From NCBI GenBank assembly GCA_030600545.1, contig JAUVLV010000008.1:1-57791 (forward strand): a DNA stretch of 57,791 nucleotides, written 5' to 3'. A model generated the notes under the pieces. It was not told the origin of the DNA and ran no database searches. It saw nothing but the letters and a program-made list of their open reading frames with translations. Source of the DNA: Candidatus Aegiribacteria sp. (lineage in GTDB: Bacteria; Fermentibacterota; Fermentibacteria; Fermentibacterales; JCC-6). Numbering within the stretch: the stretch's first letter is position 1; each line of letters starts with the position of its first letter. A program made the position numbers and the translations under genes. Below are positions 1,645 to 28,337 of the stretch, piece after piece.

Positions 1645-3842
1645 TTTGCAGTCTGGAGGAAAACAGCGGCAAGGGGGGGAAGAGTTACGCTGACAGAGTG
1701 AGGAAGGCCGTGCATTCCGAAGGGTTTTGAGTGAACGGATCCAAGGTTACCTTTGCCGGAGCCGCCGTAGATATCTGAGTCTGTATTAAGTATTTCGGCA
1801 TAAGTACCCTCAGAGGGTACACCTATCAGGTAATCCTCCCGTACGACAGGGGTCATATTGAAGATACAGACAACCTGAGAACTCTCACCAGAATTTCTGA
1901 GGAACGATACGACTGTTGCATGCGTATCGTTGAAATCTATCCATCTGAAGCCTTCAGGGCTGCAGTCGAGTTTATGGAATGCTGGATTGCGCATGATTAT
2001 TCTGTTGAGATCGCTTACGAAGATTTGCAATTTTCTGTGTTCATTGTACTGAAGGAGATCCCAATCAAGCTCAGTTTCGTGGTTCCATTCGTTCCACTGG
2101 CCGAATTCGCTGCCCATGAAGAGAAGCTGTTTTCCAGGATGCGACCATTGATAGGCCAGAAGAAGCCTGAGGTTTGCGAACTGCTGCCATCTGTCTCCGG
2201 GGCACTTGCTCAGGAGAGATGATTTGCCGTGAACCACCTCATCGTGTGAGAATGGTAGAACGAAATTCTCACTGAAGGCGTAGATGAGAGAGAAAGTAAG
2301 GTCATTCATGTGGTGCTTGCGGTGAACCGGTTCCCTCTGGAAGAAATTCAGTGTATCGTGCATCCAGCCCATGTTCCACTTGAATGTGAAGCCAAGGCCG
2401 CCGTATTCAACAGATGTCGTAACACCGGGCCATGCAGTGCTTTCTTCGGCTATTGTCATGGCTCCAGGAAAATCTTTTGCAATTATCGAGTTAAGTGTTT
2501 TAATAAACTCAATGGCACCAAGGTTTTCCCTGCCTCCGTATTCGTTTGGAATCCACTCACCCTCTTTTCGGGAGTAATCAAGGTAGAGCATTGAAGCGAC
2601 AGCATCAACTCTGAGTCCGTCGATATGGTATTTATCCAGCCAGAAAAGCCCGCTTGCCACAAGGAAGTTCTTTACTTCCTGCCTGTCGTAATTGAAAACC
2701 AGTGTCTTCCAGTCGGGATGGGTTCCTTTTTTTGGATCTTCATGTTCGTAGAGGCATGTTCCGTCGAATTTTGCAAGCCCTGTGGCGTCCGATGGAAAAT
2801 GGGCGGGTGCCCAGTCAAGGATTACTCCGATGGATGCTTCGTGGCATCTGTTCACGAATTGCTGGAAATGCTCCGGTTTGCCCAGACGGCTGGTAGGGGC
2901 GAAGTAACCTGTTGTCTGATAGCCCCAGGAACCGTCGAAGGGGTGTTCCATTACCGGCATAAGCTCAATGTGCGTAAAACCAAGCTCCTTTATGTACGGG
3001 ATAAGTTCGTCAGCCAGTTCGGACCAGGAAGTGAAATCCCTCCAGTCAGGTGGTTTCTTCCAGGAGGGGGCATGCATTTCGTATATGGACAGGGGGGAAG
3101 AGAAAGGGTTCCATTTGTTTCTACTTTTCATCCAGATTGAGTCTGTCCACTCGAAAGAGCTGATATCAGCTACAACGGAAGCTGTTCGGGGGCGGAATTC
3201 CGATGCCAGCGCAAGCGGATCCGATTTCTCAATTATTTCCCCGGTATGTGTTTTCAGGGAGTATTTGTAAAGGTCTCCGGGGGAGATGTCCGGAATGAAC
3301 AGTTCCCAGACCCCTGAAGAGCCCCTTGAGCGCATTGGATGGCGTCTTCTGTCCCAGTCGTTGAAAGTGCCGATAACACTAACTGAGGAAGCGTTTGGCG
3401 CCCATACGGAGAACAGTACACCTTCGGTGTCTCCGGCAGCCCATACTCTGCCTCCAAGCGTGTCGTAAAGCTTGTAATGGTTACCCTCGGTAAGAAGGTA
3501 CAGATCGAGTTCGCCCAGCTGTGGAAGAAAACAGTAAGTATCCCTTGTTTCCCAGGTGGTGTCTCCAGTGCTGAAAATAAGTGTATACGAAAAGGTTTTT
3601 TTCTCCGGTTCAGATATCCATACGAACAGTCCCGTATCCGTGACTCTGTTCATCTGCAGCGGTTTCGCGTTCTCTATTTTTATTGAAACCTTCAGTGCCG
3701 CAGGACAGAACGTTCTAACTTCTATTCTGTTATCGTATTCCGGCCCCAGAGGATGCATTCCGAGAAGCATGAAAGGGTTTGAGAGAGTTGCGTTCTCAAT
3801 GCTTTTGATTTCATCCGGTGTAAGAATTGTACGAATTTTCAT
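1641..3842 (-). CDS. glgB: 1,4-alpha-glucan branching enzyme
   Basis: A 733-residue GlgB that makes alpha-1,6 branches in glycogen. An N-terminal module (about 20-105) precedes a CBM48 module (about 140-205, with VWAPNASSVSVIGTFNDW) and the GH13 barrel from about 250. The catalytic motifs are complete: DWAPAHFP (343-350), nucleophile D413 in GLRVDA, acid/base E466 in IAEES and D534 in FSHDEVVHG. Length matches full bacterial GlgB. The ATG at 3842 overlaps the mgtE stop by one base. No other glycogen gene lies nearby, so glycogen metabolism is otherwise encoded elsewhere. Confidence 0.97.
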   Translation of the reverse strand: MKIRTILTPDEIKSIENATLSNPFMLLGMHPLGPEYDNRIEVRTFCPAALKVSIKIENAKPLQMNRVTDTGLFVWISEPEKKTFSYTLIFSTGDTTWETRDTYCFLPQLGELDLYLLTEGNHYKLYDTLGGRVWAAGDTEGVLFSVWAPNASSVSVIGTFNDWDRRRHPMRSRGSSGVWELFIPDISPGDLYKYSLKTHTGEIIEKSDPLALASEFRPRTASVVADISSFEWTDSIWMKSRNKWNPFSSPLSIYEMHAPSWKKPPDWRDFTSWSELADELIPYIKELGFTHIELMPVMEHPFDGSWGYQTTGYFAPTSRLGKPEHFQQFVNRCHEASIGVILDWAPAHFPSDATGLAKFDGTCLYEHEDPKKGTHPDWKTLVFNYDRQEVKNFLVASGLFWLDKYHIDGLRVDAVASMLYLDYSRKEGEWIPNEYGGRENLGAIEFIKTLNSIIAKDFPGAMTIAEESTAWPGVTTSVEYGGLGFTFKWNMGWMHDTLNFFQREPVHRKHHMNDLTFSLIYAFSENFVLPFSHDEVVHGKSSLLSKCPGDRWQQFANLRLLLAYQWSHPGKQLLFMGSEFGQWNEWNHETELDWDLLQYNEHRKLQIFVSDLNRIIMRNPAFHKLDCSPEGFRWIDFNDTHATVVSFLRNSGESSQVVCIFNMTPVVREDYLIGVPSEGTYAEILNTDSDIYGGSGKGNLGSVHSKPFGMHGLPHSVSVTLPPLAAVFLQTAN

Positions 3843-5194
3843 TACAGTATGATAATCATTCCCAGGCCAAGGAGTAGAAGGTAGCCAAGGGAATCGGTGA
3901 AAGCGGTGAGCAGAATGTTGCTGCCCAGGACTGGATCTTTGCCAAGGGCCTTGAGAACCAGTGGAATTGCGGCTCCGAGAAGACCCGCAAGACCCATATT
4001 GCCCACAATGGCCAGGAAGATGACAAGACCCAGTAGAACGGGATCGGTGTCGCCCGGGAACAGAAGAGCAACAGCGGAGGCAACCGTTCCGGCTACAAGC
4101 CCAAGAAGAAGACCAACCCTCGCCTCTTTGAAAATAGCCTTCAGACTTGATGAGAATTCCATTTCCCCAAGAGCTATACCACGTGTAATCACGATAAGTG
4201 ACTGATTTCCTGTATTACCTCCCATTCCGGCTACGATGGGCATGAAGGCAACCAGGGTCGCAACGGATTCGATGGTTCCCTGAAACGCCCTTACAACCGT
4301 GGATGCAACGAAGGCGGTAAAAAGATTCACCCAAATCCAGGGGAAGCGCTGTCTGAAGGCTGTAGATACGGGGCTGAATATTCTATCGTCCTCGGTGAGG
4401 CCAACCATTTTGTACATATCCTCCGTGGCCTCTTCCTCCATTACATCAAAAAGACTGTCGCCGGGTATGACACCGACCAGCCTGTGATTGTCGTCCACAA
4501 CCGGTATGGCCATGATATCGTACTTTCTTGCTAGAATGGCGGCTTCCTCACGGTCTGAATTTGCATTTACAGTGAATGGGTCGGCCATCATTATTTTGCG
4601 AATCGTAGTGTTCTGGGGACATGTGATAAGACGCCGGAGCGGAACGACACCTGCCAGCCTTCCGTCATTATCGGTTACGTATACGTAGTACGGAACATCC
4701 ACATCTTCGCTTTGTTCCCTTATACGCTCCACGGCCTGTTCGGCGGTGAGTTCCGTGGTAACGGACATGTAGCTGGTGCTCATGCAATATCCTGCGGAAT
4801 CCTCGGGGTATATGAAAAGCTGTTCTATGCTTTGTCTTTTAGCGGGGGAGAGCAGCTCCATTAACTCATCCCTGCGGTCCTCAGGTACAGTATCAAGGAA
4901 AAGAAGAGCATCGTTCGATTCCAGTGATGCTAATAGTTCGGCTGCCCGGTCGTTCTCCATTCGTTCCAGGATTTCAAGGAGAATGCCCTCGGGAAGCTCC
5001 AGGAGGACCTTGTCCGCCATCTTCTGTGTAAAGAGTATCTCCACCAGTATGGTAGCTTCAGACGGCGTTAGAGTGCCGAATAGATCTGCAATATCAGCGT
5101 GGTGCATTTTCTTGAGGATGAGGGCTGCCCTGCCCTGTACTCCGCTCGCAATAAGTTTGCGGACGTAATCACCGTGTTTCTGAGTAATCGGCAT
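3842..5194 (-). CDS. mgtE: Magnesium transporter MgtE
   Basis: A 450-residue inner-membrane Mg2+ channel. It has the full architecture: an N-terminal superhelical domain (about 1-125, repeated LFxxLxxxEAxxxxExL units), a tandem CBS pair (about 130-250) that senses Mg2+, and a C-terminal region of about five membrane helices (285-450) with the family GGNTGNQS signature. GGGGGTGA precedes the ATG at 5194. A TTGACA/TAGCTT promoter lies about 30 bases upstream, which leaves a short leader with no room for a Mg2+ riboswitch. It heads the operon with glgB. Confidence 0.97.
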   Translation of the reverse strand: MPITQKHGDYVRKLIASGVQGRAALILKKMHHADIADLFGTLTPSEATILVEILFTQKMADKVLLELPEGILLEILERMENDRAAELLASLESNDALLFLDTVPEDRRDELMELLSPAKRQSIEQLFIYPEDSAGYCMSTSYMSVTTELTAEQAVERIREQSEDVDVPYYVYVTDNDGRLAGVVPLRRLITCPQNTTIRKIMMADPFTVNANSDREEAAILARKYDIMAIPVVDDNHRLVGVIPGDSLFDVMEEEATEDMYKMVGLTEDDRIFSPVSTAFRQRFPWIWVNLFTAFVASTVVRAFQGTIESVATLVAFMPIVAGMGGNTGNQSLIVITRGIALGEMEFSSSLKAIFKEARVGLLLGLVAGTVASAVALLFPGDTDPVLLGLVIFLAIVGNMGLAGLLGAAIPLVLKALGKDPVLGSNILLTAFTDSLGYLLLLGLGMIIIL

Positions 5195-18257: not shown

Positions 18258-18890
18258 CTGAGTAAAAAAACGAACGTGCTGCCGCTTAACCGTCTTGAGG
18301 GGCTTACGGATGGCATATTCGCCATAGCAATGACAATTATGGTGCTTGGTCTTCCGCTTCCGGAGGCCCGTCATAATATCGCTTCAAGCGATGACCTGCT
18401 GAACCATCTTCTGGATTACTCGGAACTGTTCTGGACCTACGTACTGAGTTTTCTCCTCCTGGGTTATTTCTGGATAAACCAGCAGAAACTCTTCAAGTAT
18501 ATGAATAACACATGTACCCGCCATTTATGGGCCACCCTCGGTGAACTTCTCTTAGTATGCGTCATCCCGTTTTCATCGGGTCTAATAGGAGGTCATATAG
18601 ACTACTTCACGGCAAGTTTTGTTTTTCATATGAATATTCTGCTGATTGCCGTTCTTTTTCTGTTTCAATGCCTCCTGTTGATGAGATACCCGGAAATGCT
18701 GAAGAATGATGCATCCGGAAAAACAGCATTACACATAGTAAAGGTCAACCTGGTAATTCCTTTACTTGCTGTCCTGGGAATAATCATCGCTCTCTTCTCG
18801 CCTCCCTGGAGCCTTGCCGTTTATGTTCTTGTTCCATTCCTTACATCCATTGTTTCGAAAAGAACGAGGGAGAAGGAAAAAACCGCTTGA
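18258..18890 (+). CDS. TMEM175-like (DUF1211) potassium channel family protein, probable CTG start
   Basis: About 210 residues with six membrane segments. The family signature is at the N-terminus: LEGLTDGIFAIAMTIMVLGL, matching the F-S/T-DG-x-FAIA-x-T helix that lines the pore in TMEM175 K+ channels. GAGGAG (18246-18251) lies 6 bases before CTG 18258, giving MSKKTNVLPLNR; the nearest canonical codon, GTG 18276, is 24 bases from that site. CTG is therefore preferred. The next gene overlaps its stop (TTGA), which ties this channel to a B12-binding radical SAM protein. Confidence 0.85.
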   Translation: MSKKTNVLPLNRLEGLTDGIFAIAMTIMVLGLPLPEARHNIASSDDLLNHLLDYSELFWTYVLSFLLLGYFWINQQKLFKYMNNTCTRHLWATLGELLLVCVIPFSSGLIGGHIDYFTASFVFHMNILLIAVLFLFQCLLLMRYPEMLKNDASGKTALHIVKVNLVIPLLAVLGIIIALFSPPWSLAVYVLVPFLTSIVSKRTREKEKTA

Positions 18891-20308
18891 AAATCCTCTT
18901 ATTAACACACGATCTAATAACCGTGCCGCTGGGAATATCCTACATTTCCTCAATATCCAAACTGGCTGGTCATGAAGTAACGGCAACCGCTCTCAACACG
19001 GGGGATCTTCTCGAAAAGGTCAACGAATTCGCTCCCGATGTTGTTGCATTTGGCTGCACTACAGGTTTCCACAGGAAATACCTCGAAGCGGCTGCGAAGA
19101 TAAAATCGAAGTTCGATATTATCACCGTAATGGGAGGGGCGCATCCAACTTTTTTCCCTGAAGTTCTTGAGGAAAGCGAACAGCTGGATTTTGTTATTCG
19201 TGGTGAAGCGGAGGAGGCATTTCCTCAGCTTCTGGAGGCTCTGGAAAGTAAAAGAAGCCTGGACAGTGTCGGGAATCTCAGGTTCATCAGGGATGGGAAT
19301 GTAATTCAGAATCCCCTGCTTCCTCTATGCGAAGATCTTGATTCAATTCCGTTTCCCGACAGGAGGATGCTGGACAGTTACGAAGAGAAACTGAACAGCA
19401 AAGCTCTATTCGTCATTACCGGCAGAGGCTGCCCCTACGATTGCAGCTACTGCTTCAATCATGCTTTCAACAAGCTCTACAACGGTCTTGGCAGACAGTG
19501 CCGGAGGAGGAGCGTTTTGAACGTAATCCTGGAAATTGAAGAGATCAGGAAGGATAATCCCGGTCTTCAGATGATAGTCTTTCAGGATGATATTTTTATA
19601 CTTGACAGGGAATGGGTTTTCGAATTCTGTCGTGAGTACAACGAAAGGATAGATCTTCCATTCCACTGTCACCTGAGAGCTAACCTTGTTGATTCTGAAA
19701 TTGCAGCGGAACTGAAAAAAGCTGGCTGTATAAGCGTTAAAATGGCGATAGAATCCGCTTCCGACAGGCTGCGCAACGGACTGCTGAACAGGAACATGAG
19801 CAGGGAGACCATCGAAAACGCATGCAGAGCCGTCAAAGACGCTGGAATAGTACTTGTCACTCAGAATATTCTTGCAATCCCCACAGGTACGCTCGAAGAT
19901 GATCTTGAAACCCTGGCCCTTAACTGCTCAATTGAACCTGATTTTGCCTTCGCCACACTCATGCAGCCTTATCCGAGGACCGAAATTGGAAAATTCTGCG
20001 TTGAGAACGGTTTCATGGAGGATGATTCAGAAAGTACGCCGGATTCCTTCTTCGACCGCAGCATTCTTAGAATTCCCGACAGGAAAAAGAGGGAAAGGCT
20101 GCGAAAGCTCTTCGCTCTGGCAATTGAGTATCCCATGTTGCGGGATAACGTAAGGACATTGATAAATCTTCCGTTGGATCCAGTTTACGATATCATGGAT
20201 AAGCTATGGAAAGGGTACTGCATAAAACAGAGGGAGTTTCCCTACAAACTTACCATAGGGGAGTATATCCGAAGCATAATAACTTATTTCAGAAGCAGTT
20301 ATTATTAA
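18887..20308 (+). CDS. B12-binding domain radical SAM protein
   Basis: A 473-residue protein with an N-terminal cobalamin-binding Rossmann domain (residues 1-130: MKILLLTHDLITVPLGISYISS, VVAFGCTTGF, MGGAHPTFFPE, VIRGEAEEAFPQLL) and a radical SAM core whose cluster motif is TGRGCPYDCSYCFNHAF (C-x3-C-x2-C). The middle and end resemble the large group of B12-dependent methylases and tailoring enzymes acting on lipids or metabolites; the substrate is unknown. Start TTG 18887 overlaps the upstream TGA and has GGAGAAGGA before it. It converges on the SucD-like gene. Confidence 0.9.
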   Translation: MKILLLTHDLITVPLGISYISSISKLAGHEVTATALNTGDLLEKVNEFAPDVVAFGCTTGFHRKYLEAAAKIKSKFDIITVMGGAHPTFFPEVLEESEQLDFVIRGEAEEAFPQLLEALESKRSLDSVGNLRFIRDGNVIQNPLLPLCEDLDSIPFPDRRMLDSYEEKLNSKALFVITGRGCPYDCSYCFNHAFNKLYNGLGRQCRRRSVLNVILEIEEIRKDNPGLQMIVFQDDIFILDREWVFEFCREYNERIDLPFHCHLRANLVDSEIAAELKKAGCISVKMAIESASDRLRNGLLNRNMSRETIENACRAVKDAGIVLVTQNILAIPTGTLEDDLETLALNCSIEPDFAFATLMQPYPRTEIGKFCVENGFMEDDSESTPDSFFDRSILRIPDRKKRERLRKLFALAIEYPMLRDNVRTLINLPLDPVYDIMDKLWKGYCIKQREFPYKLTIGEYIRSIITYFRSSYY

Positions 20309-20335: not shown

Positions 20336-21301
20336 TCAGCTTTTTAACCTGTCTCGAACTGCTCCGAACACAGCATCGGGTCTTTCCACAACCGTTATTC
20401 CCGCATTCAGTAGAGCTCTGTTCTTGGCTTCCCATGTTTCGCTGTTATTCCTGATCATCGCTCCCGCATGACTCTGGGCAACGCCTGCTTTTGTGAATTT
20501 TCCACCAAGAAAGATTACTATAGGCTTTGTTATTCTCCCGTCGATCACCGCAGCGGCCAGGTCGTTCTCCTGAGTAGTTCCAGTTTCACCGTAAGCCGCG
20601 ATGATTTCAGTGCGGGGATCCTTTTCGAACGCTTTCGCAGCGTCGAGCATCGATATGCCGGGAACGGGGTCTCCGCCGACGCAGACAACTGCGGACAGCC
20701 CAGGGTAATCCTCGCCCCAGAGAGGGCCGTACGAACCATCTTCCCTGATTCCAGGAAGGTTCGGTCTGCAGTGGAAAGCTCCCAGAAGCTGTGAAAGCCC
20801 GCCGGAGCGGGATATTACGCCCACTTTTCCCGGTTTGTAATTCTTCTTCGCCCACGTTGCGCTTCCTCCTATCAGACCGAAGAGATATCCCTCGGTATCG
20901 AGGAGTCCGACCGTATTCGGACCAAGATATACGGAATCCTTTGTTGAGGCGTACTCCTTCAGTAATATCTCATCGTGCGATGGAACGCCGTCAGCGGTCA
21001 GTACAAGGAACTTCAGTCCCGCGTCCATGGCATCCATCGCAGCTTTTTTTACGGCTCCCGCAGGTACGAAGAAGACCGCTGTGTTCAACTGTGGGAAGGT
21101 TTCAACCGCTTCAGCGGCTGAATTGAAAACAGGGACGCCATCAACTTCCTGGCCGCCCTTTCCTGGTGTACATCCTGCGATAATGTGTGTGCCGAATTTA
21201 TTCATCAGACGGGATTTACTTTTACCCTGTCTTCCGGTAATTCCGAATACAAGCGTTTCGGGTGTATCAACTCCGGCGAGATATTTGACTATTCCTGGCA
21301 T
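20336..21301 (-). CDS. SucD-like acyl-CoA synthetase (NDP-forming) alpha subunit
   Basis: A 321-residue homologue of the succinyl-CoA synthetase alpha subunit. It shows the CoA-binding Rossmann domain (FGITGRQGKSKSRLMNKFGT, CTPGKGGQEVDGVPVF), the central LGPNTVGLLD, GKVGVISRSGGLSQLL and VGGDPVPG, and the phospho-histidine loop as AQSHAGAMI (canonical GHAGAI), so catalysis looks possible. Replacements in the substrate region mean the acid need not be succinate. The ATG at 21301 overlaps the stop of the beta-like gene (TGATG), consistent with a two-subunit enzyme made in equal amounts. Confidence 0.88.
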   Translation of the reverse strand: MPGIVKYLAGVDTPETLVFGITGRQGKSKSRLMNKFGTHIIAGCTPGKGGQEVDGVPVFNSAAEAVETFPQLNTAVFFVPAGAVKKAAMDAMDAGLKFLVLTADGVPSHDEILLKEYASTKDSVYLGPNTVGLLDTEGYLFGLIGGSATWAKKNYKPGKVGVISRSGGLSQLLGAFHCRPNLPGIREDGSYGPLWGEDYPGLSAVVCVGGDPVPGISMLDAAKAFEKDPRTEIIAAYGETGTTQENDLAAAVIDGRITKPIVIFLGGKFTKAGVAQSHAGAMIRNNSETWEAKNRALLNAGITVVERPDAVFGAVRDRLKS

Positions 21302-22797
21302 CAGTCCACCTCCCGGGGCAATTCAAGATGTACTCTGAGTTCGCAGGTTCCTTCTAAGATTGAAGCGGTTTCACACATGAGACAGCCTATGCAGCGGGCT
21401 TCGGGGTTCGTACTGAGTTTTCCGTTCTTCCACTCAAGGAATCCTGTCGGGCATGCTTTTACCGATGGAGGTGCTTCCTCTCCTGTCCACTTTTCCGGAT
21501 AGAAATATATTTTTCCAGGTGGTCTTTCAACGATAATCGCGGGTTCACCGGAAGGGGGTACATATTCTTTACCCGTTTCAGTTTCAACCGATGCGATTTC
21601 CATGATATCATCAACCATGGCGTTGGGGAATACCTCCGGCGGGTAGGTTCTGACCGGAACAGGCAGGCTGCCTGATACTTTTTCGAAGAGTGCCTGAGCC
21701 TTGTCCTCATCGGTTCCTCCGAACCTCAGGAGCGAAGGCAGAGGGGTGGGGCTTTCCTTAAGAGCTTTCCAGACGGCAGCCGCAAGATGGTACTGGTTCT
21801 GAAAAGCCATTCCCGAACCGGTGAGAAGAAGAACCTGTGCTTCCTTCTGTGCAAGTATGACCCTTAGAATCCGGTAGCTCTTGAAGGCGGAAAGCCCTCC
21901 GGAGGTATCGGACTCGTTCATCGTAAAGATATCCGTCCTTGAACCGGTAGTCATTTCCCACAGCATTTTACCGCCGCCTCCGCAGAGGTTCGTAGCGACT
22001 CTGAGAGAATCTTCAAGAGGTGTTTCTCTGTTCTGCCTGAAAAATCCGGTGCCTGAGGGATCATCCCGGTTGATAAGCTCAACGATTTCTTCAAGTCTTG
22101 TAAGGTTCTTTGATGAACCGATCTCAGGCGGGAAGAATATTTCTCTGTCACTTTTGCTTACAGCGCTGTTTTCGAATTCAGCCCTGCAGTCAACAGCAAG
22201 AACTGTTCCGTCTTTCAGCACTCCTAAAGGATTGACTTCCAAGACAATGAGTTTGTACCTTATATAGGTACTAATCATTCCTTCCAGGAATTCGGCAACG
22301 GCTTTATGTTCCTTCAGGTTTTCAAGTACCTTAAGCTCCTTCTCTATTTCATCAGTGGCAGGGGGGTGCAGGAGCGAAAAGCGCATTTTCAGAAGGCTTC
22401 CCGAACGTACTTCCACGCCGGAACCGCCCTCGGTACTGAAAAGCAGCACTCCTCCGGGGAGTCTGTCCCCGTTTCCAAAATCAAGCATGCAGCCCGCGTA
22501 ATACTCGGTCTCAAGATCGAGACCTTCGGTTATCAGAACACCCTCTGCCTGTCCCCATTTCCCAGGAGACAGGAGAATATTCAGGTTATGCTCAAGCTCT
22601 TCGCATGTATCAACTCTGCGGACAAGGCCGTGACTTTTCCTGCTGGTGGCTCCGGGTATCTGTGCCTTGAGAAAAACGGGCAGTTCGGGAATATCCTGCG
22701 GAGTGCTTTCACCGGGCCTTACAAATACTCCACTTACAAGAGGTACGTTCTCATGTTCCAGCAGAATTCTGGTTCGGTATTCAGGCAATGCTGACAT
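21301..22797 (-). CDS. SucC-like ATP-grasp subunit fused to FixX-like ferredoxin domain
   Basis: A 498-residue protein. Residues about 1-225 form a SucC-type ATP-grasp domain (RILLEHENVPLVSG, FLKAQIPG, IVLEVNPLGVLKDG) and about 255-385 a CoA-ligase domain (LCGGGGKMLWEMT, VLLLTGSGMAF). The last 60 residues are foreign to SucC: C449 in KACPTGF, then C469, C472 and C475 in RCIGCLMC. That order (CP first, then C-x2-C-x2-C) and the glycine-rich linker match the FixX ferredoxin-like protein of electron-transfer flavoprotein systems and should hold a 4Fe-4S cluster. It is cotranscribed with the SucD-like subunit. The purpose of a cluster on this enzyme is unknown. Confidence 0.85.
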   Translation of the reverse strand: MSALPEYRTRILLEHENVPLVSGVFVRPGESTPQDIPELPVFLKAQIPGATSRKSHGLVRRVDTCEELEHNLNILLSPGKWGQAEGVLITEGLDLETEYYAGCMLDFGNGDRLPGGVLLFSTEGGSGVEVRSGSLLKMRFSLLHPPATDEIEKELKVLENLKEHKAVAEFLEGMISTYIRYKLIVLEVNPLGVLKDGTVLAVDCRAEFENSAVSKSDREIFFPPEIGSSKNLTRLEEIVELINRDDPSGTGFFRQNRETPLEDSLRVATNLCGGGGKMLWEMTTGSRTDIFTMNESDTSGGLSAFKSYRILRVILAQKEAQVLLLTGSGMAFQNQYHLAAAVWKALKESPTPLPSLLRFGGTDEDKAQALFEKVSGSLPVPVRTYPPEVFPNAMVDDIMEIASVETETGKEYVPPSGEPAIIVERPPGKIYFYPEKWTGEEAPPSVKACPTGFLEWKNGKLSTNPEARCIGCLMCETASILEGTCELRVHLELPREVD

Positions 22798-22813
22798 TAC
22801 ATTCTCCCGTATG

Positions 22814-23854
22814 TTATTGTTTTGCTTTTTCCTTCATCATACTGTCGGTTTTTCTTACTGAATTATGCCACTGAAGGGCCACAGAGGGGCTGAGGCTGTA
22901 CAGGTAATTGTATTCAGTATAGCAGCTTGCTGTGCAGGACTGACATGGAAGGTCAGCTGTCCTGTTGAACGCTTCCTGGAATCCGGCATCAAGGGCATTG
23001 ATTGACTCAGGATAGAGGCCAATAAGAAGGGAACAGGGGTATACTTTTCCATCGGCATCGATATTGCAGTACATTTTGCCGGCTCTGCAGGGAACACCAT
23101 GAAATTTTTCATCCATCCTTGTGATCGAATAATCGGGCCAGTTCAGGAGGCTTTTCAGGTATCTTGATGAATTGGCGATCGGAGCGCCGTATTTTTTCAA
23201 TTCAAGAAGCTTTCTGTAGACTTCCGTGTATTCCTCATTCGAAGGCATCATGCCGGATGTGTCACCACCAAGTTTTTCGTTGTGGTGAAGTGTCTGAAAA
23301 GTGGTTTGGAATCCGTATTTGACCGCTGTTTCCATTATGTGATCAAGGTAGTTCATGTTGTGCCTTGTAAGGACAGTTATGCTCCATAGCCTTACTTTGC
23401 CGGAAGCTGTTTCCATCGCCCTGATAACTTTTTCGTGGCTGCCGTTTTCCCGGTTCGTATCGTGAGCTTTCTCAGGGCCGTCGTAGGCAAGAACCAGATG
23501 ATCTATGTTGTCCAGTATCTCGATCTTAGAGGGGATAAGGTAACCGTTTGAATCAAGACTGACGTACATTCCAAGGGATCTCGCATACGCACAGAGTTCG
23601 GAGATATCGTCTCGCATCAGGGGTTCTCCGCCCCACACACCGATGCGGCGGGTTCCCGCTTTCGCCATCTGCCTGAAAAGCTCTTTCCACTGTTCTGTCG
23701 TAAGGTCGGGGCGACCCTGTTCGGGTATCTGGCAGTAGCTGCAGCGGCTGCAGCATCTGTCGGTTATTGAAACCATTACGTTGACGGGTCTCCTGCGTCC
23801 GAATAAACCCAGAACTGCATCGAACCCCATGCTCATCTGTCCAAGTAGATTCAT
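22814..23854 (-). CDS. Radical SAM protein with C-terminal cysteine-rich (SPASM-like) region
   Basis: A 346-residue radical SAM enzyme. The cluster motif is TDRCCSRCSYCQIP (C-x3-C-x2-C), followed by the GGEP motif as GVWGGEPLMRDD. Near the end, VPCRAGKMYCNIDADGKVYPCSLL and LPCQSCTASCYTEYNYL supply six or more cysteines for an auxiliary cluster, as in SPASM or twitch domains. ATG 23854 overlaps the DUF362 stop (ATGA) and is preferred; ATG 23884 would add ten residues. SPASM proteins often modify peptides, enzymes or lipids; here the partner could be a product of the same operon. Confidence 0.87.
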   Translation of the reverse strand: MNLLGQMSMGFDAVLGLFGRRRPVNVMVSITDRCCSRCSYCQIPEQGRPDLTTEQWKELFRQMAKAGTRRIGVWGGEPLMRDDISELCAYARSLGMYVSLDSNGYLIPSKIEILDNIDHLVLAYDGPEKAHDTNRENGSHEKVIRAMETASGKVRLWSITVLTRHNMNYLDHIMETAVKYGFQTTFQTLHHNEKLGGDTSGMMPSNEEYTEVYRKLLELKKYGAPIANSSRYLKSLLNWPDYSITRMDEKFHGVPCRAGKMYCNIDADGKVYPCSLLIGLYPESINALDAGFQEAFNRTADLPCQSCTASCYTEYNYLYSLSPSVALQWHNSVRKTDSMMKEKAKQ

Positions 23855-24876
23855 AACAATGGTTTCTCGGGCTGGCCCATCCATTGCGGGCCGTAGACGT
23901 TGTTCTTCATGAATTGCTTTGCCTCCCGATTCTGGCCGAAAAGGTAGTATGCCAGGTTGTACCAGCGCTTAGCGCCGATCTTCATAATACCGATGAAGGG
24001 ACTATCCGTTCCGGGTTTATTCTGTTCTTTATTTCCCCTGATCTTTCTCTCGACTTTTGCTACGAAATTCGGAGCAGCTTTCCTGAAAGAGAATGAAGGA
24101 CGCTGAGAAAGGGGCGGCACGCATACGTTCTCTAGATTCTCGTACGATCCAGTCACGCCGTTGCCCTTAACGGTTGTTTCCACAGAGAGAGGATCGATGC
24201 CCATGACTTCCGCAACGGAATAATCCAGGGCTATCCTGTCGGTTGAAGCCGCGAGGAAATCCGTCTGTCTGGGAATACCGGGTTTTGGTCCGTTTCCTTC
24301 AAGTGATACGGTTCCATCCGCCAGTGTAAGAACAACAGGTATCTGTGAATTCACAGCTACTGCGTAATCAGCAAGCCTGTAGTGGTAATTATGCCTGTTG
24401 TCGTCAAGGCAACCGTACAGGTGTTTCATGGCCACTGAGATAACAGATCTGTAATGGGTTTTGACAACGGGAATGGAAACAACCGGCATTTTTGTGCATA
24501 TCTCGGGAATGCTGAAGCGGAGATCACCAGCTTCTTTCCGGATCCATCTGTTGTCTGAAAAATTGTGCCAGATTAAACCCTGCCTCTCAGCAACATCTTT
24601 CATTCTTGTTATACTGTATGCCCTGGTCGCATTCACCAGTATCTGGCTTGATTCACCGAGGTAAATCCGTCCTACGTGGTTCTTGACCTTCTCGGCGAAA
24701 GCCTCAACAACCCAGGGAGATGTATCAACTCCTGGGCGTAAATAATCCCATGTGAGATTGATCTTTACAAGAATGTCTTCGTTTCTTGGAAGGAGTTTCT
24801 TCCAATCAGCGGCATCAAGAATATTGTTGACAGCACGGTGGACGCCGCTGAAAGTTGATGCATAAAAAACTTTCAT
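23851..24876 (-). CDS. DUF362 family protein
   Basis: A 341-residue protein of the DUF362 family. Matching parts are VKINLTWDYLRPGVDTSPWVVEA near the start, the VVSIPVVKTHYRSVISVAMKHLYGCL core, VLTLADGTVSLEGNGP and STDRIALDYSVAEVMG. DUF362 proteins are often linked to iron-sulfur proteins or carry ferredoxin domains; this one has none, but a ferredoxin-tailed protein is two genes downstream. AAGGAAGC precedes the ATG at 24876. It is the first gene of the four-gene operon running to 20336. Biochemical role unknown. Confidence 0.85.
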   Translation of the reverse strand: MKVFYASTFSGVHRAVNNILDAADWKKLLPRNEDILVKINLTWDYLRPGVDTSPWVVEAFAEKVKNHVGRIYLGESSQILVNATRAYSITRMKDVAERQGLIWHNFSDNRWIRKEAGDLRFSIPEICTKMPVVSIPVVKTHYRSVISVAMKHLYGCLDDNRHNYHYRLADYAVAVNSQIPVVLTLADGTVSLEGNGPKPGIPRQTDFLAASTDRIALDYSVAEVMGIDPLSVETTVKGNGVTGSYENLENVCVPPLSQRPSFSFRKAAPNFVAKVERKIRGNKEQNKPGTDSPFIGIMKIGAKRWYNLAYYLFGQNREAKQFMKNNVYGPQWMGQPEKPLL

Positions 24877-24944: not shown

Positions 24945-27900
24945 CTAATCTCTGAGCAGCACAAGCTTTCCGGCAGCTTCAGCGGAGCCTGATAGTCTCA
25001 TGAAATAAATCCCGGAAGAAAGATGGGAAACATCCATTTCTACATCGTCTCCAAAGGGTGACTGCCCGTCTTTTGAAAGAACCAGTCTTCCAGAAATGTC
25101 GTACATGGAAAGATTCCAGTTACCCGACGCGGAAATATTCAGGGGTACGGAGAAATAAGCTGAAGCAGGATTAGGCGCGGGAAGTCCCAGAACAGGCGTA
25201 ACCGGTGAAGGAGATGAAATCCCTGTAGAACCTGTATACGCTCCCTCAATCGAAATATCGTCGATATAAAAACCAGTACCTGTATCATCATCATCATCGG
25301 AGTAGAATCTGAATTCAAGCTGTATAGCTGTTCCCGCTTCGTACATTGAGAGATCATATGAATAGGGCACCCAGCCTGTGCCGATACCTTTACTGACGGG
25401 AGCAAGCGCTCCTCCGGAGCCTATGAAATCGAGTGTATCCTCTGTTCCACCTTCATGGATTACCATATACATTCCGTCGCTGCCGTATATGGCAGTGTCG
25501 AAAGTAGTCCAGAATTCAATTGTCGCGTCTGGGGCGAGTACCATTCCCGGACTGAACAGGCTGCAATCCATCCCATCGATATATCCATCTGTTCCGCCGC
25601 AGAACCACGAATGAGTTGGAGAATGACTGGTGTTTTCTGAGATATTCCACATGTCATTCGTTCCAGAGTGAGTCCATCCTGCAGCACCATCTTCAACATC
25701 GTTCGAAATCCCGGTTTCGCCCACAGTAAGCCGGAGAGAATCTACAGACGAGTAATCGGCTGTGGGAGAAACAATGTCGAAGAAAAGCCACGGGAATGAG
25801 GGGGATGGTGTGCCGGCATCAAGCTGGCAGACAAAGGTGAACGTTTTGGTGCCTTCCGGAGGGATAGAATCAACGTAGGCCGAATCCGAAAGCCATGTCA
25901 CATCGGCTGGATATACTGTCATTACGGCTGATACTTCGGTTGCATTCAGCATTCCCACGTTGGCTATGGAAGCAATCAGATCGAAGGTTTCTCCCGGTTC
26001 CGGAATACCGTTCGCGTTCCCGGAGGTGCTGTCATTTATACTGTAAGTTGTGAAATACAGGCCTGGCGCATACACAAGGAAGGAAATCGTGATGTCCCAG
26101 TTGCCCTGGGCTGTCTGAATTTCTCCCTGGAGGGCTATTACATCACCGTTTGCTGCCGATGTATTCACCTGAAGAGAAATCGATGGCGATCCCGCTGATT
26201 CGGCTCCGGCATCGATATTCCCAAATGAACTTGAGTTCTGGCTGATTACTGCCGGTCCGGTAACTGCGTCTATTACAAGATCCACGCTGGTAAGGTCTTC
26301 TGTTCCCTGGTTGAGAAGTGTGATGTGAAGATCGGAACTGCATCCGGGGGAAAGCTGATCGTACCCCATGTTATCATCGATGATCAGCTGGGAGATCACG
26401 GGGTCAGGGCCGGTTGCCTGCAGTATATCGACTGTGGTTCTTCTTACTGCCGGTCCGGTAATCGTAACCTTTACATCTCCGATCACAGGATCTCCGAAAT
26501 CGAAAGTGTAAGCGCCTGATGCGTCAAGCACCGCTACATCCCAGTTGTTTCCCTGATCATGAACGCAGACGGTCAGCCCTTCGGGATTAACTCCGGATAC
26601 CAGCACAGGGAATACGGAAGTATTTGTGGTAACTATCGCAGGACAATCGATTGTGATATCTGCAGGAAATTTCCTGTAAGGCCGCAGAGAAGGGTCACCC
26701 AGCAGGTTTACATCGTACTGATGCCACCTGTAAACGTTTTCCCATTGGCTGTACGGTATGAAATACTCTTTTGTATGAGCCAGCAGTTCTCCCGTTGTAA
26801 GAGTCCTGTCAGAGTAAAGATAATCATGATAGAGGTGATCGAGCGCGTCGGAGTATCCGTAGCAAGGATTTCCCGGTGAACCCCATCCGTAGCTGGAGTT
26901 GCCGATGTATCCAACGGTGCAACCGTTAGGATTAGTTACGAAATGCTCACCTATGGCATCGAAATCGAATGCCGCGCTCCAGCATCCGATGGAATACATA
27001 GAAGAGGCGTACCTTCCACCTGAATTCACTGCGTTCACATCACTGATTCCCATTAAATCGTCGCCTACACCTATGACTGAGTACCATGCATGCCCGTCAT
27101 GGTTTATGAAATTCTGCCCGGCGTTCATCGCGGCCATGGTTGAGGTAAGATTCTCGTTCCCATTTGCCTGGTACAGTTTTGTAATATCAAGAAAATCGGG
27201 AAGGAACTCCTCATCGATATAATCCTTGCTTTCGCCGGAATTCGTATAGGGATTCGACCAGAGAATCTCTGCCAGGAACAGAACCCTCTGAAGGTGATCG
27301 TCCTGAATGCAGTCTTCGTATGCGGCGATATTGTTGACGAAAGTTTCCGCTTCGGTGACATTTTCAACGGGCGCCCTTCCGACGAAAATATCGGGATACA
27401 GGTCTACATCATCGGCAACCTCTCCGAAAATATCGTTGCCGTTCGCGTCCCATGTTCCATCAAGGTCTGAGAAGTAGAGGTCACATGGAAGGTTGTCTTC
27501 CCGACCGGGGTAGATTCCCGCCTCACAGGTCATCGCATAGGCATACCTGAAGGGTACCTTATTCGTGTCCCCGCCCAGAAGAAGAAAATCAAGGCCATTT
27601 GTTGTGTAATAATCCTTGATGAAGTTCCTGAGTTTTTCAGCGTTGTCGCGCCCTGAAGCCCAGGTGTATATGCTATCCATTATGTATACCTCGGTAAGGA
27701 TTCCCTGATCGTTTCTCCTTTCCGCAAGCTCAAGAAATGCTGGTTCGCAGAACTGATCTGTAACTATCAGCATTCTTCTGAACTCCCCGGAATCAACTGA
27801 AAGCAGCGGCTGCGACTGGATGGGAGCTGTCTCAATGTGTACTTCAAGGGAGGAAAGTCTCTGGAGCTCACCGGTTGAGGGATTCCATCGTAATGGTGTT

Positions 27901-28337
27901 ACAGTAAGTTCCGCAACAGGTGATCCCTTCATGAAGCCTGTTCCAGTAAGTTCGACCGGAGTGGAGGGCCAGAAATCGTTTGACAGATATATATCATCGT
28001 TCCGTTGAACATCCATATCTACATACTCTAGAATTAGTGGAACAGGTTTTGAAAGGGGAGGGACGAACACCGATACCGCGACAGTTTCCCATATCTCGGA
28101 TGATGTTGCTGACAGAGCTCCGAATCCTGCAGGTAGGGTTACAGTCAGTGGGAATTTAGGAAGCATGGGGAAGCCTTCTTCAGTTCCAGCGTAGCTTCCG
28201 GGCAATTCAGGTATGACTCCTCTTGGAGTTTCATTCAGTTTGATCCGACCGTCAAGATCATGGGTCAGATCGACTGTTATCGTTTCAGCTGAGGCAATTG
28301 CGATAATTAATACAGGAACAAAAAGAACTTTGAACAT
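24945..28337 (-). CDS. Large C25 (gingipain-like) peptidase with T9SS sorting domain
   Basis: A 1130-residue secreted peptidase. Signal peptide (residues 1-17), a propeptide region to about 185, then the C25 domain (IVTDQFCEPAFLELAERR, LLLGGDTNKVPFR) with probable catalytic His416 (NHDGHA) and Cys452 (SIGCWSA). Beta-sandwich repeats follow at about 560-870, then a jelly-roll-like module (about 880-1040) and a type A T9SS sorting domain (LPAPNPASAYF, MYDISGRLVL, SSGIYFMRL). AGGTGG precedes the ATG. The composition matches the chromosome, unlike the other C25 gene. It should be exported through the T9SS to the cell surface or medium. Confidence 0.93.
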   Translation of the reverse strand: MFKVLFVPVLIIAIASAETITVDLTHDLDGRIKLNETPRGVIPELPGSYAGTEEGFPMLPKFPLTVTLPAGFGALSATSSEIWETVAVSVFVPPLSKPVPLILEYVDMDVQRNDDIYLSNDFWPSTPVELTGTGFMKGSPVAELTVTPLRWNPSTGELQRLSSLEVHIETAPIQSQPLLSVDSGEFRRMLIVTDQFCEPAFLELAERRNDQGILTEVYIMDSIYTWASGRDNAEKLRNFIKDYYTTNGLDFLLLGGDTNKVPFRYAYAMTCEAGIYPGREDNLPCDLYFSDLDGTWDANGNDIFGEVADDVDLYPDIFVGRAPVENVTEAETFVNNIAAYEDCIQDDHLQRVLFLAEILWSNPYTNSGESKDYIDEEFLPDFLDITKLYQANGNENLTSTMAAMNAGQNFINHDGHAWYSVIGVGDDLMGISDVNAVNSGGRYASSMYSIGCWSAAFDFDAIGEHFVTNPNGCTVGYIGNSSYGWGSPGNPCYGYSDALDHLYHDYLYSDRTLTTGELLAHTKEYFIPYSQWENVYRWHQYDVNLLGDPSLRPYRKFPADITIDCPAIVTTNTSVFPVLVSGVNPEGLTVCVHDQGNNWDVAVLDASGAYTFDFGDPVIGDVKVTITGPAVRRTTVDILQATGPDPVISQLIIDDNMGYDQLSPGCSSDLHITLLNQGTEDLTSVDLVIDAVTGPAVISQNSSSFGNIDAGAESAGSPSISLQVNTSAANGDVIALQGEIQTAQGNWDITISFLVYAPGLYFTTYSINDSTSGNANGIPEPGETFDLIASIANVGMLNATEVSAVMTVYPADVTWLSDSAYVDSIPPEGTKTFTFVCQLDAGTPSPSFPWLFFDIVSPTADYSSVDSLRLTVGETGISNDVEDGAAGWTHSGTNDMWNISENTSHSPTHSWFCGGTDGYIDGMDCSLFSPGMVLAPDATIEFWTTFDTAIYGSDGMYMVIHEGGTEDTLDFIGSGGALAPVSKGIGTGWVPYSYDLSMYEAGTAIQLEFRFYSDDDDDTGTGFYIDDISIEGAYTGSTGISSPSPVTPVLGLPAPNPASAYFSVPLNISASGNWNLSMYDISGRLVLSKDGQSPFGDDVEMDVSHLSSGIYFMRLSGSAEAAGKLVLLRD

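Follow-up and report, generated by a model that had tools for sequence, protein, structure and literature searches.

The locus described here raises the question of whether four adjacent genes, encoding a DUF362 protein, a radical SAM protein and the two subunits of a SucC/SucD-type CoA ligase, constitute one system or whether the ligase acts with partners encoded elsewhere in the genome. The window, the whole 57,791-nucleotide stretch of DNA that was analyzed, belongs to a Fermentibacterota metagenome-assembled genome that is 73% complete; the Fermentibacterota are fermenting bacteria that have been little studied. All four ORFs lie on the minus strand, encoding the DUF362 protein (341 aa, 23851..24876, PF04015), an optional operon member; the radical SAM protein with its auxiliary-cluster region (356 aa, 22814..23884, PF04055); SucC', an ATP-grasp CoA-ligase beta subunit with a C-terminal Fe-S domain (498 aa, 21301..22797, ATP-grasp_2); and SucD', a CoA-binding alpha subunit carrying an 18-residue insertion (321 aa, 20336..21301, CoA_binding and Succ_CoA_lig). 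ORF calls and Pfam matches agree with the initial annotation on these four genes running in one direction, and the ORF coordinates bear out its two overlapping junctions and one gap: the DUF362 and radical SAM frames overlap by 34 bases as called, 16 bases separate the radical SAM and SucC' frames, and the SucC' and SucD' frames overlap by 1 base. The radical SAM frame begins later in several homologues; a possible start at 23854, giving 346 aa, would make the DUF362/radical SAM overlap 4 bases (ATGA).

The proposal of a four-gene system had been staked on co-occurrence of the genes in other genomes, and the four were found side by side in 18 of 30 related loci, a count that takes in one locus with a broken DUF362 frame (L055) and one in which DUF362 is cut by the contig start (L059). 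Gene order is kept phylum-wide at protein identities of about 48-95%, a constancy indicating that the arrangement is more than chance. The operon they form is genuine and conserved, and is probably expressed as a shared transcript. The operon may mislead with regard to function because closer partners of the ligase lie elsewhere in the genome.

SucC' matches ATP-grasp_2 at 30.0 bits (cut-off 29.5) and Citrate_synth_N, the ATP-grasp model of ATP-citrate lyase (ACL), at a sub-threshold 30.7 bits (cut-off 83). Residues K44, E187, N189 and D203, presumably catalytic, are invariant in the aligned homologues. In a fold search, citryl-CoA synthetase ranked first (6hxq_B, E 5.9e-23) with succinyl-CoA synthetase nearly tied (9a7l_B, E 7.0e-23). 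SucD' matches CoA_binding at 73 bits (cut-off 22.3) and Succ_CoA_lig at 35.5 bits (cut-off 27.4), and its His278 (codon 20468..20470, minus strand), within an SHAGA motif, is invariant in all 15 aligned SucD proteins, one of which is the genome's own succinyl-CoA-synthetase-type SucD; we take this residue to occupy the place of the succinyl-CoA synthetase phosphohistidine. Judged by sequence, the pair shares with citryl-CoA synthetase (CCS) the make-up of a two-subunit ATP-grasp CoA ligase with a phosphohistidine position. SucD' yields no Citrate_synt match and thus has no fused citryl-CoA lyase (CCL) domain. Its identity is 40-41% with lyase-linked SucD and 34% with SucD of the succinyl type, and in a small tree it lies far from both. 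The 18-residue insertion is present in 8/8 family members and 0/4 of the outsiders compared.

The suggestion that the ligase subunit has its own iron-sulfur domain is corroborated by four C-terminal cysteines (C449-P and C469-x2-C472-x2-C475; 21304..21480, minus strand), which are invariant in 13/13 and in 23/23 aligned homologues. By sequence these could suffice for one [4Fe-4S] cluster, the domain scoring under the Pfam cut-offs (Fer4_9, 13.8 bits against 27); in the distant relative L094 a more complete set of ferredoxin-type cysteines occupies the same position. To our knowledge, an Fe-S cluster incorporated in an acyl-CoA synthetase would be a rarity. Of four citrate contacts of human ACLY compared, one is kept in a single pairwise alignment: the positions of Asn346, Thr348 and Arg379, which we take to be citrate contacts, are A, Q and F in SucC'. 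The residue kept, F332, is, as read by eye, the counterpart of Phe347, a citrate contact of ACLY (PMC10115795).

The radical SAM protein is what the initial annotation described, with a Radical_SAM match (PF04055) of 74.9 bits (cut-off 29.5), a CxxxCxxC motif (C44/C48/C51; 23732..23755, minus strand) invariant in 17/17 aligned proteins and an auxiliary Fe-S cluster region (22922..23089, minus strand) whose six cysteines, at 266, 273, 284, 314, 317 and 321, are likewise invariant in 17/17. Its SPASM score, 15.5 bits, is under the cut-off of 21.5. Among the 25 matches listed of 68 NCBIfam families matched, none is above its own cut-off and the best is PTO1314 (90 bits, 306 needed). The DUF362 protein matches PF04015 at 104.7 bits (cut-off 24). 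Its structure model is of low confidence (pLDDT 64) and returned zero fold matches at E <= 0.001, and no conclusion regarding identity by fold was drawn. DUF362 and DUF2088 (LarA) belong to one Pfam clan (PMC11770544).

Whether these two proteins serve the ligase was assessed from their distribution. The initial annotation had suggested a redox-linked acyl-CoA ligase with a dedicated maturation enzyme. An acid:CoA ligase with intact catalytic residues is supported; a dedicated maturation enzyme is not, the radical SAM gene being present in 24/24 good-quality genomes of the phylum (38/42 overall; in G015 the count rests on a 56-residue fragment at the end of a contig) and SucC' in 18/24 (30/42 overall). 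A radical SAM gene without a ligase match occurs in 8/42 genomes, including 6/24 good ones. Six ligase-less genomes were viewed: in G014, G026, G039 and G040 the radical SAM gene lies beside genes that flank the window's copy, in G004 it does not, and in G005 the contig is too short to tell. Conversely, the ligase pair occurs with neither gene adjacent at Myxococcota, Phycisphaerae and Riflebacteria loci (L040, L042 and L045); at L041 only 228 bases lie upstream of the ligase. Because the radical SAM gene and the ligase can occur apart, the dedicated maturase was not retained as the main reading. That all four genes nevertheless act as one system, the radical SAM protein (with DUF362) modifying the ligase or its product, is quite improbable. 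Such a system would fit the contiguity in 18 loci, the radical SAM gene in 30/30 SucC'-containing genomes and, over all 42 genomes with incomplete ones included, the association of SucC' with radical SAM (p 0.0044) and, weakly, of the ligase with DUF362 (p 0.026; DUF362 match in 29/42); against it stand radical SAM genes in genomes with no ligase match, ligase loci with neither gene adjacent, and the lack of a DUF362-ligase association when just the 24 good genomes are taken (Fisher p 0.57), among which the radical SAM association is untestable because the gene is universal there. Combined, the radical SAM and DUF362 proteins look like separable neighbors, not dedicated ligase helpers.

Closer functional partners are encoded elsewhere in the genome: a CitE-type lyase, an isocitrate-dehydrogenase (IDH)-like enzyme, an HD protein and two aconitase-family enzymes. 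One Myxococcota and one Phycisphaerae contig carry a same-strand eight-gene cluster, IDH-HD-AcnF-LeuC-LeuD-CCL-SucC'-SucD', ending in the ligase pair, in which AcnF is a fused aconitase-like protein, IDH is isocitrate-dehydrogenase-like and CCL is citryl-CoA-lyase-like. The CCL-type lyase adjoins SucC' in L040 and L042; in G043 a relative lies at a contig edge, apart from SucC' (L041), and the cluster was not found by eye within the 8-kb flanks of the Riflebacteria locus. The genome of the window holds close relatives of 7/8 cluster proteins: identity is 74% for IDH, 59% for HD, 52/48% for the LeuC/LeuD halves of AcnF (next 36/33%), 57% for LeuC (next 34%) and 63% for LeuD (next 30%). In the Fermentibacterota the IDH and HD genes are adjacent or have one small ORF between them (G000). 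A citrate-synthase-family (PF00285) match is absent from 35/42 phylum genomes, including that of the window (73% complete). SucC' relatives (E <= 1e-40) were found, besides the search-center genomes, in 0/38 genomes from the phylum of the Riflebacteria hit, 2/391 from that of the Phycisphaerae hit and 1/281 from that of the Myxococcota hit, the latter two sets being samples of larger groups in which scoring was limited to the top 3 or 5 candidates from each genome.

The cluster also bears on whether the pair is simply a succinate- or malate-type CoA ligase paralogue used in fermentation, its correlation with a lyase reflecting lineage history. The SucC/SucD fold, with succinyl-CoA synthetase almost tied as nearest, and absences confined to about four lineages are compatible with this. 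In the Myxococcota relatives, however, SucD' and SucC' are 74% and 62% identical to the window pair and 31% and 27% to the genome's succinyl-type pair, and the lyase-containing cluster occurs in two phyla, rendering a plain ligase improbable. Also encoded in the window's genome is a second SucC/SucD pair, which clusters with the SucCD of E. coli. SucC' and SucD' share the fold and catalytic positions of succinyl-CoA synthetase but fall far under its NCBIfam cut-offs (TIGR01016, 51.8/375.6 bits; TIGR01019, 197/353 bits).

Presence of the ligase coincides with that of a lyase in the good-quality genomes of the phylum. PF03328 CitE-type lyase and SucC' agree in 24/24 good genomes, 18 having both and six neither, G015 being one of the six; the missing ligase of G015 and G018 may be an assembly gap because the location is beyond the contig edge. 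The absences are concentrated in few lineages, about four, and the co-occurrence p values overstate independence accordingly. All four lyase proteins scanned are CitD-CitE fusions (PF06857 and PF03328 over cut-off), the best family, TIGR01588 citE, is under cut-off in 2/2 scanned, and the CitD-domain serine presumed to serve for attachment, in what we take to be the attachment motif, is kept in 5/6. The search for a CitE-type lyase gave no match in the genome of the window (73% complete). IDH and SucC' occur together in 17 of the 24 good genomes, with one having ligase only (G033), two IDH only (G004, G005) and four neither. In the co-occurrence table G018, whose sole IDH match is short and distant, was scored IDH-absent. 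In G024 (79% complete) the ligase is present and a PF00330 match is absent.

The pair is probably an unusual iron-sulfur form of a citrate-activating enzyme or a close relative of one. With modest confidence, SucC'D' is viewed as a ligase that resembles citryl-CoA synthetase, depends on ATP and carries an additional Fe-S domain, functioning in a module for cleavage or formation of citrate or an analogue. The substrate, direction and chemistry that we infer for this ligase, and the role of its Fe-S domain, would be as follows. ATP would phosphorylate SucD' His278, phosphate would move to a hydroxy-tricarboxylic acid, most likely citrate, with homocitrate or citramalate possible, and CoA would displace the phosphate to give a CoA thioester. 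A C-C lyase would then cleave, or make, this thioester: a protein of citryl-CoA-lyase type in the Myxococcota and Phycisphaerae clusters and, in Fermentibacterota, the CitD-CitE fusion encoded at a separate locus. Two aconitase-family dehydratases and the IDH-like enzyme would connect the module, in one direction or the other, with a 2-oxo acid, the C-terminal cluster of SucC' might be a redox sensor or structural element, and DUF362 and radical SAM would share the transcript in Fermentibacterota and perform a separate job.

The identity of the acid is less certain. The cluster CCL is nearest to citryl-CoA lyase, both among solved structures (6hxp, E 1e-33; best citrate synthase 9e-18) and among NCBIfam families (180 bits, 245 needed). 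Use of the same module for a citrate analogue of the homocitrate, citramalate or 2-isopropylmalate type, in chain extension of the leucine, lysine or isoleucine kind run forward or in reverse, appears doubtful. It would account for two separate dehydratases with a dehydrogenase, and the IDH-like and LeuC-like proteins match homoisocitrate dehydrogenase, homoaconitase and isopropylmalate/citramalate isomerase models or structures as well or better, none over an equivalog cut-off: the best NCBIfam dehydrogenase family is homoisocitrate dehydrogenase (276 bits, cut-off 540) and the best solved relative of LeuC is isopropylmalate/citramalate isomerase. A saccharopine-dehydrogenase-like gene, named by eye, also adjoins L094. 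Opposed to this are the lyase assignment and the best solved relative of IDH, a putative NAD isocitrate dehydrogenase at 200 bits, ahead of homoisocitrate dehydrogenase at 187. Returning to citrate, we tentatively suggest that the Fe-S citryl-CoA synthetase and CitD-CitE lyase form a further route of ATP-dependent citrate cleavage, or in reverse of ATP-yielding formation, replacing citrate synthase in most of the phylum and gated by redox through the Fe-S domain.

Among known systems, CCS/CCL of Hydrogenobacter thermophilus is similar in its separate SucC- and SucD-type subunits, in the CCL-type lyase adjacent in two phyla, and in providing the first-ranked fold match of SucC' and the best sequence match of the clustered lyase. 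It differs in that SucC' has the C-terminal Fe-S domain and SucD' the insertion, and in that 35/42 Fermentibacterota genomes lack a PF00285 protein, a lyase of CitD-CitE type taking its place in the phylum. ATP-citrate lyase (Chlorobium AclAB, human ACLY) is similar in the sub-cut-off Citrate_synth_N match and in a SucD-CCL fusion at L094, but the window pair has no CCL fusion and, in the one alignment made, does not keep most compared citrate contacts. The presumed partner lyase has the CitD- and CitE-type domains of citrate lyase CitDEF, here fused, and an ATP-dependent ligase may stand in place of the CitF transferase. A search among open-licence papers, which is weak evidence of novelty, found none joining DUF362 with radical SAM or describing a ferredoxin-domain CoA ligase, and among the matches listed no title or abstract start concerned such a module. 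The direction of carbon in the citric acid pathway depends on whether citrate is formed or cleaved and on the ATP that this costs, and the pair could explain citrate handling in the 35 genomes without a PF00285 match. A carbon-fixation survey used ACL and CCS markers (PMC9802188). A ligase/lyase pair of such make-up would probably be missed by these. Among more distant SucC relatives, the HD gene lies within about 5 kb of three (L092, L093 and L094) and a CCL domain is found near two of these, L092 and L094.

The four minus-strand open reading frames of the initial annotation (window 20336-24876), encoding in order a DUF362 protein, a radical SAM protein and the CoA-ligase subunits SucC' and SucD', coincide exactly with the ORF coordinates. 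The two overlapping junctions and the 16-base gap are likewise confirmed, the first overlap measuring 34 bases and the last 1 base. Pfam supports the four products as DUF362, radical SAM, ATP-grasp_2, barely above cut-off, and CoA_binding with Succ_CoA_lig, respectively. The claim that one ligase subunit carries its own iron-sulfur domain is borne out by four cysteines at the SucC' C-terminus, C449, followed by proline, and a CxxCxxC motif (469/472/475), which are invariant in 13/13 and 23/23 aligned homologues. Pfam ferredoxin models fall under cut-off on this domain, and we infer that the cysteines constitute the set for one predicted [4Fe-4S] cluster. K44, E187, N189 and D203 of SucC' and H278 of SucD', corresponding to catalytic positions of succinyl-CoA synthetase, are kept. 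An 18-residue insertion in SucD' is present in 8/8 family members but in 0/4 of the outsiders compared.

The window is located on contig C6 of a MAG with 73% completeness, whose relatives with a name include Candidatus Aegiribacteria and Sabulitectum along with other Fermentibacteria. SucC' was found in 30 of the 42 phylum genomes searched (18 of the 24 good-quality ones). All four genes are contiguous in 18/30 loci from named genomes; among the remaining 12, four are in other phyla and five run into a contig end (L031, L038, L048, L054, L057), while DUF362 is missing from L039, L058 and L060 despite at least 2 kb of upstream sequence there. The set therefore survived, within the phylum, the possibility that the four genes do not co-occur elsewhere. 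Their distribution across genomes nevertheless argues against one tight functional system and shows the operon to be modular. Radical SAM is present in 38/42 genomes (24/24 good ones) and DUF362 in 29/42 (19/24). Ten radical SAM neighbourhoods were compared, six from ligase-less genomes; in the latter, DUF362 adjoins radical SAM in G014, G004 and G005, and radical SAM occurs alone in G026, G039 and G040. Radical SAM of G014, G026, G039 and G040 adjoins genes that are its neighbours in the window as well; that of G004 does not, and the G005 contig is too short to judge. Radical SAM and SucC' are both present, without DUF362, in G001 and G003. Association of SucC' with DUF362 is absent in the good genomes (15 with both, 3 and 4 with a single one, 2 with neither; Fisher p 0.57) but present over all 42 genomes, incomplete ones included (p 0.026).

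SucC' and SucD' also occur together on contigs of one Myxococcota, two Phycisphaerae and one Riflebacteria MAG, with identities to the window pair of 59-62% and 71-74%, respectively; single cases among these could be affected by binning errors. No DUF362 or radical SAM relatives were found beside the ligase at these four loci, of which L041 has only 228 bases upstream. On the Myxococcota and one Phycisphaerae contig the ligase genes close a same-strand series of eight, encoding isocitrate-dehydrogenase-like (IDH), HD-domain (HD), fused aconitase-like, LeuC-like, LeuD-like and citrate-synthase-family proteins, SucC' and SucD'. The closest solved protein to the clustered citrate-synthase-family member is Hydrogenobacter citryl-CoA lyase (E 1e-33), the best citrate synthase scoring 9e-18. 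The L041 genome has a relative of this lyase away from the ligase locus, where a contig breaks off, and the Riflebacteria flanks, checked by eye, contain no members of the cluster.

The window's genome possesses clear counterparts to 7/8 cluster proteins, at scattered sites (IDH 74%, HD 59%, LeuC 57%, LeuD 63%, SucC' 62% and SucD' 74% identity, and, for the fused aconitase-like protein, 52 and 48% over its two parts), each far ahead of its paralogue where one was compared. The HD gene lies beside the IDH gene in 5/6 Fermentibacterota IDH loci printed (L145, L146, L148, L149, L150; Pfam check in L145, others by eye), L147 counting as not resolved; in the window's genome one small ORF intervenes. 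A small HD-domain protein accompanies the module in several phyla (L040, L042, L092, L093, L094, L145).

CitE-type (PF03328) lyases are present in 33/42 phylum genomes. Lyase and SucC' are concordant in 24/24 good genomes, 18 having both and six neither, although the Fisher p of 7e-6 overstates the case, as the six genomes with neither gene represent only about four lineages and one of them, G015, ends at a contig edge. Over all 42 genomes, 29 have both, one, the window's own, ligase only, four lyase only and eight neither. The lyase is a CitD-CitE fusion (CitDE) in 4/4 proteins scanned with Pfam and in two more by alignment; the others are known as open frames only, mostly of similar length, the G029 match being split over two frames. 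IDH fits SucC' more poorly in the good genomes (17 with both, 1 with ligase only, 2 with IDH only, 4 with neither).

The predicted SucC' model (pLDDT 82.7, pTM 0.56) has citryl-CoA synthetase as its top match (E 5.9e-23), with succinyl-CoA synthetase nearly tied in second place (7.0e-23), so the fold does not discriminate substrate. In the proposed mechanism, H278 of SucD' would be phosphorylated by ATP, the phosphoryl group would activate a citrate-like acid to its CoA thioester, and CitDE, or a citryl-CoA lyase (CCL), would split this into acetyl-CoA and a 2-oxo acid; run in reverse, the pair would form the acid and save one ATP. Since PF00285 citrate synthase was not found in 35/42 phylum genomes, including that of the window, both directions are possible. 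Citrate as substrate stays presumptive because the similarities of the IDH- and LeuC-like proteins to isocitrate, homoisocitrate and isopropylmalate/citramalate enzymes are roughly even or favour the latter. The Fe-S domain may, as a guess, gate the ligase by redox state.

A carbon-fixation survey gives ACL and CCS/CCL as the two marker sets for ATP-dependent citrate cleavage (PMC9802188). The window pair scores under cut-off for every NCBIfam ligase model matched, and no published description of it was found in the open-licence literature searched. Three more distant SucC relatives (E 5e-47 to 1.5e-53) were detected among sampled genomes of the phyla to which the Phycisphaerae and Myxococcota hits belong. 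All three loci include an HD gene: in L092 it accompanies SucC, SucD and a citryl-CoA-lyase-type protein; in L093 it accompanies SucC and SucD, the lyase not being resolved at the locus; in L094 it accompanies a SucD-CCL fusion and a SucC with a fuller ferredoxin-type cysteine set. The SucC proteins of L092 and L093 have lost the C-terminal CxxCxxC, and these C-termini, together with that of L094, suggest that the Fe-S domain probably predates the window's SucC' family. The L094 genes (1802-3337 and 3337-5034) form an ACL-like pair, with a saccharopine-dehydrogenase-like gene (by eye) before it and the HD gene after it.

Other neighbouring genes were observed. A B12-binding radical SAM gene (window 18887-20308, plus strand; best NCBIfam HpnJ, 126 of 578 bits) converges on the operon and is also kept in L031, L032, L034 and L037. 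Directly upstream on the operon's strand lies a gene for a 1130-aa protein (24945-28337, minus strand) whose sequence, by eye, suggests a secreted peptidase carrying a sorting tail; relatives occur immediately before DUF362 in L109 and slightly further upstream in L115, and in L039 an ORF judged similar by eye is found immediately before radical SAM. Contigs C13 (L095) and C52 (L096) of the window's genome carry nearly identical gene series in mirror order, with a LeuC/LeuD pair and a DUF362 gene, representing a duplication or two strains within one bin. A GlcD-type FAD oxidase gene (L119 10052-11500) is divergently paired with a LeuC-type gene in four Fermentibacterota genomes (scanned in L119; by eye in L121, L123 and L124).
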